Shown here piece by piece: positions 52,897 to 60,143 of a DNA stretch of 64,000 bases. The stretch's first letter is position 1, and each line of letters starts with the position of its first letter. The position numbers were made by a program, and so were the translations under genes. The notes beneath the pieces were generated by a model. The model saw only the letters and a list, made by a program, of their open reading frames with translations. It was not told the DNA's origin and ran no database searches. Origin of the DNA: an uncultured Alphaproteobacteria bacterium (GTDB lineage Bacteria; Pseudomonadota; Alphaproteobacteria; Rs-D84); contig CALXMY010000001.1 in NCBI GenBank assembly GCA_944389595.1, forward strand, positions 64,179 through 128,178. The letters are read 5' to 3'.

Positions 52897-52978
52897 AAAA
52901 TTATCGTTAAATGCCACGTAATCCCAACCAATTTTTACCAATTGGTTGGGAAAAATTTATAAATATTTTATCGGCGGT

Positions 52979-53007
52979 TTGTTTTGCACCTAAAAAAGTG
53001 ATATAAT
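52979..53007 (+). promoter_or_regulatory. Promoter of the structured RNA
   Basis: TTGTTT (52979-52984) and a consensus TATAAT (53002-53007) with a 17-bp spacer. Transcription would start near 53014. Confidence 0.65.
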
Positions 53008-53013
53008 TGTACT

Positions 53014-53238
53014 GAACCCAACGGGGGACCTGCGGGCTCGGGCTGTGGTAAGCCCAATATATTCGGTGCAAAAGCATCGTTAAATCTGATGTTTTCGGTG
53101 TCTTTTTTGCACCGTTATCATCCCTGGCACTAATGTCGGGGGGCTGTTGTCATATAACAGGGGTAACCCGAAAGCAACAGAATCACTAATATATTGATTT
53201 ACCAACTCCCCGACCGTCAATTCCCTTTGACGGTTTTT
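53014..53238 (+). ncRNA. Unclassified structured RNA or leader, about 225 nt, upstream of a methyltransferase gene
   Basis: There is no coding frame of note. It contains successive foldable parts: GGGCT/AGCCC (loop GTGGTA, 53040-53055); CGGTGCAAAA/TTTTGCACCG enclosing GCATC/GATGT (53064-53114); and GTCGGGG (53135-53141) pairing with CCCCGAC (53208-53214) around an inner CTGTTG/CAACAG stem. It ends in an intrinsic terminator at 53214-53238. The final stem of the large domain overlaps the terminator by one base, so switching is possible. I could not match it to tmRNA, SRP RNA, RNase P RNA or 6S RNA by eye. It could be an independent small RNA or an attenuating leader of the gene at 53260. Confidence 0.65.
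53214..53238 (+). terminator. Terminator at the end of the structured RNA
   Basis: CCGTCAA/TTGACGG stem with a 6-nt loop, followed by T5. It lies only 21 bp before the methyltransferase start codon. Confidence 0.8.
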
Positions 53239-53259
53239 GTGTTATGGGAGAAGGGGAGA

Positions 53260-55632
53260 ATGGCAATCACATTGGTTCAGCAAATGCGTGCCGCACGGCG
53301 CGAAGAAGAAGTCAAAGATATTTTCCAAAACTATTTTAATTTGGGAAATGTCGGTTTGGGTGCTATTGATTTATCACTGCCGTATATTTATTTCGAGGCC
53401 AAACATGAAGAAACCGATATTTATCGTATGTTGGCGCAATTAATATTAACGATTCACCGCGATTCTGACAAAATAGATTTCCCGGAATACATCGGCGGAT
53501 TTGATAATGTTAAATGCGGTTTTACAGAATTTGATCCATTGTACCAAGCGTTAAGTACAGCCAGTGATATGAATTGGTTACAAACGCCCAGTGCCGTAGA
53601 TACAAGAACTGTCGATTTGGTACGTAAATTTGCCGAAGGCAAAGTATCTTTATATCAATATGAAACGGATGCGCGTGAATTAAAATCTGCATTGTCTAAA
53701 ATTATTGCTGGGCGCGGTTTACGGGGACAAATTTTACAAAAAAAGATAAACGCCAATAATTTTGTGTCTGTGTTTATGAAATGGCAAAAAGAACTGGGGG
53801 GAAACATTCGCGACATAAACAGCGATTATAATAAAAAAGTCGGCATAACACCGGGTGATTTTTATTTGGCGGATTTATTATCAGAAGATAACGAATCCAT
53901 CCCAGAACTGGATAAATTAAAAATTTTGCGCAGTGGCAACGGGTATAAATCAAATGTCAAAATTAACGGAGAATTATTTACAAAAGATTATGCAATTATC
54001 AATCCAGATAAACATAATTTATTTTGGAATAAATATCGTCGCCCACCCAAACGGGAATATTGGCGTATAATCCAGGAACGGCGCGATTTATTGGTGCCAC
54101 AGAAAGTTCGTGAAACAACAGGTGCATTTTTTACACCACAAATTTGGGTAGAAAAATCCCAAGAATACATGGCGGCCGCATTTGGTGATAATTTTAAAGA
54201 TATGTATATTTGGGATTGTGCGGCGGGTACGGGGAATATGTTGGTTGGTCTGCCCCAGGAAAGACGTAATATATTTGCCAGCACCCTGATGGAACCAGAT
54301 GTTGAAATAATGCGGCAAAACAGCAATTTGTTTGAAAATCAGATTTTTCAGTTTGATTTCTTGAATGATGATTTTAAACCCGTACGTGATGGCGGTAAAA
54401 TGCCGGATCGTTTGTATGATATTATTCAGAATCCGGAAGAACAACAGAAATTGATAATTTATATCAATCCACCGTACGCAGAAGGAGATACTCATACTAA
54501 AAATAGAAATATTCGTAGCGGTGTAGCGGCAACAAAATTTCATAATCAAAGTATGGAGTTGATTGGAAAGGCTGCCATGGAGGTTTTTGCACAGTTTATT
54601 ACTCGCATTTATTTGCAAATTCCGCATTCGGTGCTGACACTATTTTCAAAGTTGAAAATAGTGTCAGCACCGAATTTTACGGTATTTCGCGAGTTTTTTC
54701 GTGCGGAATACATTGGTGGATTTGTTGTTCGTGCAAATACATTTGATAATGTAAAGGGCAATTTTCCAATCGCCTTTACAATGTGGAATCTAGACAATAA
54801 ACAACCGATTACAAACATATCGTGCAATGTATTGGAAAATGACGGCGAAATGAATGGCCGTAAAAAGTTCTTTGCTTATAATACAGGAACACGTTTTTTG
54901 AATGATTGGCAAAATGAATGGCGAAATTCACAGAATAAAATTGCGGTCATGGGTTATGTTGGAAACGATTTTCAAAACCAAAATTATGTGTTCTTATCAA
55001 CAAATGGTCGGGGACATCATGAAACAACCGTATCAGAATCAAATGTTATAAATGCGGCGATATATTTTGCTGTTCGTCATGCTATTCCGGCAACTTGGTT
55101 AAATGACCGTGATCAGTTTTTGTATCCTGTATCACGTCCCGTAAATGATACCGATAATTTATTGGAAGCGCGCCAGGAATTTTTATACGAATCCGATGAC
55201 GAATTTAAGAATAATTGTTTGATTTATACACTGTTCCATACCCAAAATCGTATCAGCAGTAATGATGGTGTAAATCACTGGATTCCATTTACCGAGGATA
55301 TGGTTGGTTGCGCGTCTTCGTTCGACAGTAATTTTATGTCACAATTTTTGGCTGGTCGCCATATACCGGAATCATTATCACCTGCTGCGCTGGGGGTGTA
55401 TAATGCAGGGTTGGAAATATGGCGGTATTATCATACCCGTGGTGCGAACCCAAATGCATCGCTGTATGATATCAAGGAATTTTTCAAAGGCCGTAAAGAT
55501 AACGGCAAAATGAATAACAAATCTGATGATGCCGAATTCAATCGTCTGGAATCTGAATTAACCGCTGCGATGCGCGAACTGGCGACCGAAATCGAACCTA
55601 AAATATATGAATACGGATTTTTACGGAAATAG
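53260..55632 (+). CDS. Fused nuclease-methyltransferase (type IIG-like restriction-modification protein)
   Basis: I take ATG 53260, with GGGAGAAGGGGAG upstream; an earlier in-frame ATG (53194) lies inside the RNA. The 790-residue protein has an N-terminal PD-(D/E)xK-like site (Asp37, then Glu46-Ala-Lys48 in FEAKH), a helical region, and an N6-adenine methyltransferase domain with motif I DCAAGTGNM (near 319) and motif IV NPPY (403-406). A target-recognition region should follow, with FDNVKGNFPIAFTMW. The layout is that of type IIG enzymes, which both cleave and methylate. No separate specificity or restriction gene is nearby. A perfect 24-bp-arm palindrome lies at 54626-54675. Confidence 0.85.
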   Translation: MAITLVQQMRAARREEEVKDIFQNYFNLGNVGLGAIDLSLPYIYFEAKHEETDIYRMLAQLILTIHRDSDKIDFPEYIGGFDNVKCGFTEFDPLYQALSTASDMNWLQTPSAVDTRTVDLVRKFAEGKVSLYQYETDARELKSALSKIIAGRGLRGQILQKKINANNFVSVFMKWQKELGGNIRDINSDYNKKVGITPGDFYLADLLSEDNESIPELDKLKILRSGNGYKSNVKINGELFTKDYAIINPDKHNLFWNKYRRPPKREYWRIIQERRDLLVPQKVRETTGAFFTPQIWVEKSQEYMAAAFGDNFKDMYIWDCAAGTGNMLVGLPQERRNIFASTLMEPDVEIMRQNSNLFENQIFQFDFLNDDFKPVRDGGKMPDRLYDIIQNPEEQQKLIIYINPPYAEGDTHTKNRNIRSGVAATKFHNQSMELIGKAAMEVFAQFITRIYLQIPHSVLTLFSKLKIVSAPNFTVFREFFRAEYIGGFVVRANTFDNVKGNFPIAFTMWNLDNKQPITNISCNVLENDGEMNGRKKFFAYNTGTRFLNDWQNEWRNSQNKIAVMGYVGNDFQNQNYVFLSTNGRGHHETTVSESNVINAAIYFAVRHAIPATWLNDRDQFLYPVSRPVNDTDNLLEARQEFLYESDDEFKNNCLIYTLFHTQNRISSNDGVNHWIPFTEDMVGCASSFDSNFMSQFLAGRHIPESLSPAALGVYNAGLEIWRYYHTRGANPNASLYDIKEFFKGRKDNGKMNNKSDDAEFNRLESELTAAMRELATEIEPKIYEYGFLRK
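54626..54675. repeat. Perfect 24-bp-arm inverted repeat inside the methyltransferase gene
   Basis: ATTCGGTGCTGACACT at the left end and AGTGTCAGCACCGAAT at the right end belong to fully complementary 24-nt arms (54626-54649 and 54652-54675) separated by AG. The arms encode residues 456-472 (HSVLTLFSKLKIVSAPN) in frame. Leu CTA and Ile ATA, uncommon in neighbouring genes, are used in the arms. Confidence 0.95.
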
Positions 55633-59990: not shown

Positions 59991-60083
59991 TGCCTTTCCA
60001 TTTTCCTTTTGAAACATTATATCATAAAAAAAGTCATGATAAAAGCATTTAGTTAATTGTTTGTGTTCTTGTAATCGTGTTGT

Positions 60084-60111
60084 AAAAAAAGCCCCGCAAT
60101 ATTGCGGGGCA
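60084..60111 (-). terminator. Terminator of the barrel gene at 60144-61142
   Basis: A perfect palindrome GCCCCGCAAT/ATTGCGGGGC is followed on the minus strand by T7. Confidence 0.88.
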
Positions 60112-60143
60112 ATTGTCCAATATATGTTAATTTTATTTTTAGT

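Follow-up and report, generated by a model that had tools for sequence, protein, structure and literature searches.

A Putative Attenuator Leader, Distantly Related to sRNA-Xcc1, Precedes Unrelated Accessory Genes in Alphaproteobacteria

Bacterial leader RNAs that recur before surface genes are known from several systems. The class I c-di-GMP riboswitch (GEMM) is present many times in a genome, with a different and often surface-related gene behind each copy, and uses alternative pairing with a terminator. EAR and RfaH-type processive antitermination likewise depends on a leader element before surface-related genes and acts on termination. For sRNA-Xcc1, an integron-encoded small RNA of Xanthomonas campestris, a different mode of action is on record: the title of a 2011 article by Chen et al., cited in PMC12444791, reportedly calls it trans-acting. 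Northern blots showed it with a length of 88 nt (PMC2996969); it sits upstream of symE in integron cassettes (PMC12444791), and seven homologues of its family, RF02221, have been reported in Xylella (PMC12189769).

Here we describe, from computational analysis alone, a structured RNA in a window of 64,000 nucleotides (the whole stretch of DNA that was analyzed) from an uncultured alphaproteobacterium; its features are listed in Table 1. It belongs to an uncatalogued RNA family that is absent from Rfam and distantly related to sRNA-Xcc1, and we found no description in the literature of such an RNA in these organisms. The RNA probably acts in cis as a transcription attenuator and represents a leader-type branch of an sRNA-Xcc1-like superfamily that has become attached to accessory genes.

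The original prediction, made from the sequence of the window, described a structured RNA with a consensus −10 box of its own and an intrinsic terminator ending 21 bp before the start of a methyltransferase-like gene, and all of this is borne out. The TATAAT box is present, and a −10-like hexamer lies 6–9 nt ahead of the element start in 26 of 27 relatives. The best TATAAT-like hexamer located 4–10 nt before helix P1 has at least five of six matches in 20 of 27 full-length copies, compared with two of 27 in a control interval; because of this excess, each copy appears to carry its own sigma-70 type promoter. From 53014 to approximately 53239 the RNA folds with −83.2 kcal/mol, against −63.1 ± 4.7 kcal/mol for dinucleotide shuffles (z = −4.25; 0 of 200 as low), and since homologous copies occur across the order, we take the structure to be well above chance. 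The terminator stands 21 nt upstream of the ATG of the 790 amino acid open reading frame (ORF). With Rfam 15, the window RNA reaches the gathering threshold of no family and gives nothing credible at permissive E-values. A scan of the whole window against all Rfam models returned three tRNAs only, with no match to 6S RNA, the competing identity named in advance, or to another housekeeping RNA. The earlier statement that no known class could be recognized holds as far as Rfam matches in the window are concerned, but it missed the distant kinship to sRNA-Xcc1. A long inverted repeat (CCCAACCAATTTTTACCAATTGGTTGGG) at window positions 52925–52951 probably terminates the upstream ORF and is the source of a sub-threshold SpF22_sRNA match.

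Table 1. Features of the RNA and of the gene behind it (window positions; alignments A2 and A3 as described in the text)
Feature	Position	Strand	Evidence or remark
−10 box TATAAT	53002–53007	+	Read from sequence; 6 nt ahead of G53014
P1, 5′ hairpin	53014–53039	+	Helix 1 of A2, with covariation; divergent in the window copy; 5′ end probably near 53014
P2, hairpin GGGCU-GUGGUA-AGCCC, conserved loop	53040–53055	+	A2 helix 3, 96% paired, two pairs with double changes
P3, 5′ strand (partner 53188–53195 inside P8 loop)	53056–53063	+	A2: 8 of 8 pairs changed on both sides
P4 (CGGUGCAAAA × UUUUGCACCG) and inner P5 (GCAUC × GAUGU)	53064–53114	+	A2 helices 5 and 6
P6, local hairpin CCCUGGC × GUCGGGG	53122–53141	+	A3: 96.6% paired, double changes in 5 of 7 pairs; rival of LR for 53135–53141
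LR, 5′ strand (switch strand UGUCGGGGGG)	53134–53143	+	Three-strand coevolution; LR covariation
P7 (CUGUUG × CAACAG) with inner P7a (GGG-GUAA-CCC); conserved AUAUAACA / GAAAG	53144–53180	+	A3 helices 2 and 3, double changes in all pairs
P8, hairpin AAUCA × UGAUU; loop bears P3 3′ strand (53188–53195)	53181–53199	+	Present in almost every copy
LR, 3′ strand CUCCCCGACC	53206–53215	+	53212–53215 double as terminator 5′ arm
Intrinsic terminator GACCGUCAA × UUGACGGUU with U-tract	53212–53239 (hairpin 53212–53235)	+	Helix 4 of A3
Shine-Dalgarno region GAAGGGGAG	53250–53258	+	Read from sequence
ORF, 790 amino acids, putative adenine-type DNA methyltransferase	53260–55632	+	DCAAGTGN and NPPY motifs read from sequence

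The secondary structure was derived from three alignments. A1 contains 28 cores and is the basis of the covariance model R1, which describes the 3′ core; A2 is a full-length alignment of 27 copies; A3 holds 64 distinct sequences aligned to the structure with P6 and the terminator. Covariation in homologous loci had been suggested as a check, and in A2 it supports ten helices, with 92.8% of the cells paired and changes on both sides in 31 of 57 pairs. None of 500 shuffles, which do not model phylogeny, did as well on any measure, and the values fall sharply when partners are slid by one column. The complementarity of P3 is retained in most remote copies. In a short subtype the P8 stem reads ACAAU × AUUGU, and its loop is still complementary to the strand after P2; P8 and P3 jointly would form a pseudoknot. 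The fourth pair of P6 is U-G in 22 of the 27 sequences of A2. Conserved G-U pairs bear on the idea that the element works as DNA, as a recombination or insertion site that puts genes behind a promoter in the manner of integron cassettes, with the hairpins as recognition structures. Dispersed copies before unrelated genes, the presence of sRNA-Xcc1 in integron cassettes (PMC12444791) and relatives on plasmids would all suit such a site, but it accounts neither for these G-U pairs nor for a −10 box and a terminator that are correctly oriented, with a start codon always downstream, and we regard it as very improbable.

The strand GUCGGGG (53135–53141) has two mutually exclusive partners, either the upstream strand CCCUGGC, in P6, or, within the longer UGUCGGGGGG, the downstream strand CUCCCCGACC, in LR. 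The closing strand of the large domain was thought earlier to share one base with the terminator stem; it shares four (CUCCCCGACC, 53206–53215), and this same strand competes with a second hairpin for its partner. Double changes occur in A3 in 20 of the 22 pairs of P6, P7, P7a and the terminator, the last of these being 98.7% paired with double changes in 6 of 6 pairs. Across the 64 distinct sequences, 94% of the LR cells are paired and six of ten pairs show double changes, with a covariation score reached by 0 of 500 shuffles. The LR count is not favored by the alignment, because A3 was aligned to the P6/terminator structure. Moreover, the three strands change together: U-A-U stands for C-G-C at several positions and A-U-A for G-C-G. 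Triple changes are visible in locus L076 (AUCCAAC / GGUUGGAGG / CCUCCAACC) and in locus L081 (GCCCGGC / GUCGGGCGU / ACGCCCGACC). A terminator and an alternative helix that competes with it, both conserved, are what is looked for in an attenuator, and both are found here.

How the two folds are balanced depends on what is counted. The LR duplex alone is stronger than P6 in 65 of 65 sequences, and the 3′ module is near-bistable (on minus off, mean +1.5 kcal/mol); before the 3′ arm of the terminator is made, LR is favored in 24 of 27. Nested folding of the full-length RNA puts the terminated state ahead by a mean of 12 kcal/mol, a value that overstates the bias because a nested calculation has no way to include both P3 and LR. 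This preference speaks against an attenuator, and with the terminated fold so far ahead, the pseudoknot, or a ligand or factor, must therefore pay for the switch. A further point against it is that LR takes four of about nine terminator pairs, by which termination may be weakened rather than abolished in the model. The favored terminated fold would suit a constitutive damper, in which a portable promoter, a leaky terminator and a stable 5′ structure keep acquired genes low with no sensing, and the client genes are indeed accessory and often costly. However, a damper leaves unexplained both the compensatory upkeep of P6, LR, P3, P7 and P8 across such distances and the invariant loop residues, and we consider it unlikely.

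The first part of the LR 3′ strand, CUCCCC (53206–53211), is also complementary to GGGGAG (53253–53258) of the Shine-Dalgarno region. Over 103 copies the match is 4.37 bp, compared with 4.05 bp for swapped partners (0 of 200), a small excess; possible pairing of this strand to the Shine-Dalgarno region is a lead only.

Are the genes behind the RNA related to one another? In 107 of 119 distinct copies the start codon lies 16–40 nt past the end of the core or terminator, the fixed short distance that is expected of an attenuator, and nearly all have a Shine-Dalgarno-like motif. The downstream proteins are mutually unrelated, with a mean column identity of 4%. By a simple hydrophobicity rule, used as a heuristic for signal peptides, 63 of 106 clients (59%) have a signal-peptide-like N-terminus, compared with 76 of 379 (20%; p-value = 3e-14) among the remaining ORFs of these loci. 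Several Pfam families recur among the clients: outer-membrane beta-barrels, autotransporters, OmpA and opacity-type porins, GT2 and GT8 glycosyltransferases, EcoRI-type and cytosine DNA methylases, ankyrin repeats, and surface antigens. Secreted proteins and lipoproteins are also among the clients, as are GmrSD-type and other restriction-related genes. At the level of sequence comparison, the helices, the P6/LR competition, the fixed place before start codons and the type of client gene are established, and the attenuator-like reading in the original prediction gains from the distance to the start codons and from the covariation of two competing helices.

The same spacing helps to judge whether the RNA is instead an independent trans-acting small RNA that acts on other mRNAs and lies upstream of genes by chance. 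It has its own promoter and terminator; sRNA-Xcc1 is reportedly called trans-acting in the title of Chen et al., and RNAs related to ours match RF02221. Publication of sRNA-Xcc1 as a stable, trans-acting RNA of 88 nt (a size seen in PMC2996969) also weighs against an attenuator. Yet the tight distance to start codons (107/119) and the bases shared by LR and the terminator arm would have no reason in a trans-acting RNA, which is hard to reconcile also with dozens of divergent copies per genome, and a short stable RNA is equally expected from an attenuated leader. An independent small RNA therefore seems improbable to us.

The gene behind the window RNA has no match in Pfam, NCBIfam or PADLOC. 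A small RNA tied to this restriction-modification gene had been proposed, and the RNA might specifically control such a gene, holding back its expression once a new host has been entered. A methyltransferase-like gene does follow here, and other copies lie before EcoRI-type and cytosine methylases, but most copies precede surface and other genes. Homologues of the ORF are found in four of 200 genomes in the order, the window's own and three others. One of these (G138) is identical over 360 nt, RNA included. In another genus, G192 has a full-length homologue (54% identical over 789 residues) behind an ordinary intergenic region with no RNA copy, so the RNA is not conserved upstream of homologous methyltransferases, a point singled out beforehand for checking. 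Because the same RNA precedes dozens of unrelated genes, the window methyltransferase is one of many clients. The link to restriction-modification is incidental; a specific role is largely refuted by the gene distribution, and we give it almost no credence.

The family is widespread in the order. A blastn-type search of 59 related genomes located it at over 100 sites, spread over 28 of the genus's 35 genomes. R1 matches 144 of 156 genus genomes, 182 of 201 order genomes and 19 of 23 genera. At an E-value of 0.001 there are over 1,100 R1 matches in the genus genomes (copy numbers per genome are lower bounds), and a deep search of six genomes at an E-value of 0.01 gave 7 (the window's own genome), 10, 21, 23, 30 and 38 copies. 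These counts depend on the E-value cut-off, and the 21–25 bit range mixes true short-subtype copies (L076) with a false positive. The latter, a match of 21.6 bits at window positions 60018–60118 on the minus strand, before an outer-membrane-type ORF, was rejected as the plain terminator hairpin of the preceding gene, which has no LR strand. In an even sample of the class Alphaproteobacteria, R1 is present in 23 of 385 genomes at an E-value of 1e-5, and the R1-matched genomes in a sample of the phylum are all Alphaproteobacteria. Named records with the element are metagenome-assembled Alphaproteobacteria from rumen, reticulum, horse faeces and similar sources. The window-type RNA has no match in phages, plasmids or IMG/VR, and a phage or plasmid origin for it was rejected, although remote cousins occur on Rhizobiales plasmids.

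Two loci show unusual arrangements. In L159 (G501:C6:519000-524500, reverse strand), at approximately 524000, a second P7 part (GGGGAGAUCGUAGCGUAUGUUCAGAGG...) comes right after the first element and ahead of the next start codon; the leader is tandem or partly duplicated, and the genome has 2.6 Mb. In L112 (G010:C2:263400-267900), at approximately 1400 and 1560, a degenerate copy lies between direct repeats (TTAGTAGATTGGCTTAGAATACCAAGATATTAC), as if moved or duplicated.

The kinship to sRNA-Xcc1 emerges from comparison in both directions. The RF02221 model gives sub-threshold matches in 12 of the 14 genomes searched; they often coincide with R1 matches and reach at most 50.4 bits (E-value 2e-8); its cutoff of 53 bits is reached in none of the 14, and none of 14 control genomes has an RF02221 match. 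The window RNA itself does not match at E-values up to 10. Locus L152 scores 32.5 bits (E-value 7e-4), and L089 aligns with positions 1–87 of the 87 in the model (E-value 4.6e-8). The architecture of RF02221, an outer helix closing P7 with its inner hairpin, plus P8, is present in our family, where the same helices covary in A1 and A3, and its consensus fold, LR-P7(P7a)-P8, is exactly the terminator-disrupting conformer. R1 in turn finds relatives picked with the RF02221 consensus in Aeromonas (E-value 2e-5) and Nitratidesulfovibrio (E-value 3e-4). In the Aeromonas copy the outer helix and terminator overlap alike (GGCCACCAU...AUGGUGGUC), and a start codon is close behind. Leaders like sRNA-Xcc1 also lie before BRO/antirepressor-like genes in Aeromonas caviae (L170, 1609 onward) and Pseudomonas aeruginosa (L172, 1618 onward), the latter gene adjoining mercury-resistance genes. 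In the window's own genome, G000:C1:26259-26333 (minus strand) matches RF02221 with 37.2 bits at a place not among the R1 matches and is probably a short-subtype copy.

Remote cousins (query L152) are carried by 239 plasmids, mostly of Rhizobiales and mostly conjugative. In cultured bacteria, the annotated coding sequence usually starts about 20–40 nt behind the plasmid copy; an exception is Agrobacterium tumefaciens, with an annotated start 165 nt behind. This subtype, from plasmids of Rhizobiales and Rhodobacterales, has no obvious terminator, which counts against an attenuator. At their end, the plasmid and large-genome copies (L149-L152, L162-L164, L174, L176) carry a conserved GCGGGGGCGNACCGC hairpin, which directly precedes the start codon and may be a translational platform. 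Because another conserved hairpin stands in place of an obvious terminator, the expression platform of the plasmid subtype differs.

For the attenuator that we favor, we infer from these data how termination would occur and be regulated, which fold would be on and what kind of signal would act. Polymerase would start near 53014 at the element's own promoter and produce a multi-helix RNA. In the default fold, GUCGGGG would be held in P6, the terminator hairpin would form, and transcription would end approximately 20 nt short of the gene. Alternatively, the switch strand would pair with CUCCCCGACC and close a three-way junction, LR-P7-P8, while the P8 loop could also pair with the strand after P2 (P3). 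Stabilization of this junction would permit read-through, because LR takes four bases of the terminator 5′ arm. Something shared by all copies may set the balance, for instance an ion, an RNA-binding factor or a small molecule, so that accessory genes at scattered places, those for surface and defence among them, would respond to a single signal.

Two kinds of signal were considered and set aside. Seven RNA-bearing genus genomes (G000, G060, G171, G010, G003, G071, G143) contain no GGDEF domains, so c-di-GMP is unlikely as the signal, and a c-di-GMP riboswitch, for which there is also no model match, was discarded. NusG-family genes number one per genome in 14 of 14 genomes, with no RfaH or LoaP-like paralogue; given this single NusG, an RfaH-like antiterminator is unlikely as well.

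It is tempting to go further, and we do so tentatively, with more doubt than we attach to the attenuator itself. The RNA may be an orphan riboswitch-like class of host-associated Alphaproteobacteria in which one signal, through tens of copies per genome, jointly gates accessory genes, including those for surface and defence. For its part, sRNA-Xcc1 may be a fragment of such a leader, one that accompanies mobile genes in Proteobacteria and outside this group. Rfam lacks a regulatory RNA that almost all species of a large, uncultured group from gut and rumen possess, with up to 38 copies per genome. If one signal is sensed, genomes of approximately 0.9 Mb would co-ordinate their cell surface and accessory genes by RNA. 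For sRNA-Xcc1, which is integron-borne and often discussed as a virulence sRNA, the choice between a trans-acting sRNA and an attenuated leader is now directly testable, and plasmid copies in the cultured Rhizobium etli (p42d of strain CFN 42) and Ketogulonicigenium make bench work possible.

How, then, does the RNA compare with known systems? It resembles the class I c-di-GMP riboswitch in its many copies per genome before differing, often surface-related genes and in the alternative pairing with a terminator, but it has no Rfam match. With EAR and RfaH it shares a place as leader before surface-related genes and a possible effect on termination, whereas the element here ends in its own terminator. 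Like attenuators and riboswitches generally, it is a 5′ leader with a folded domain, exclusive helices and an intrinsic terminator before the ribosome-binding site; unlike them, it has unrelated clients with no metabolic theme. In sRNA-Xcc1, the published role is that of a trans-acting sRNA, and the window copy itself has no RF02221 match; here, moreover, the core is the 3′ half of a leader of approximately 225 nt with P1–P6, a promoter of its own and a terminator overlapping the outer helix. Yet the two have in common an outer helix around two hairpins, of which the first has an inner GGG-loop-CCC stem and AAUA / GAAA motifs, and a place upstream of an accessory gene, which for sRNA-Xcc1 is symE.
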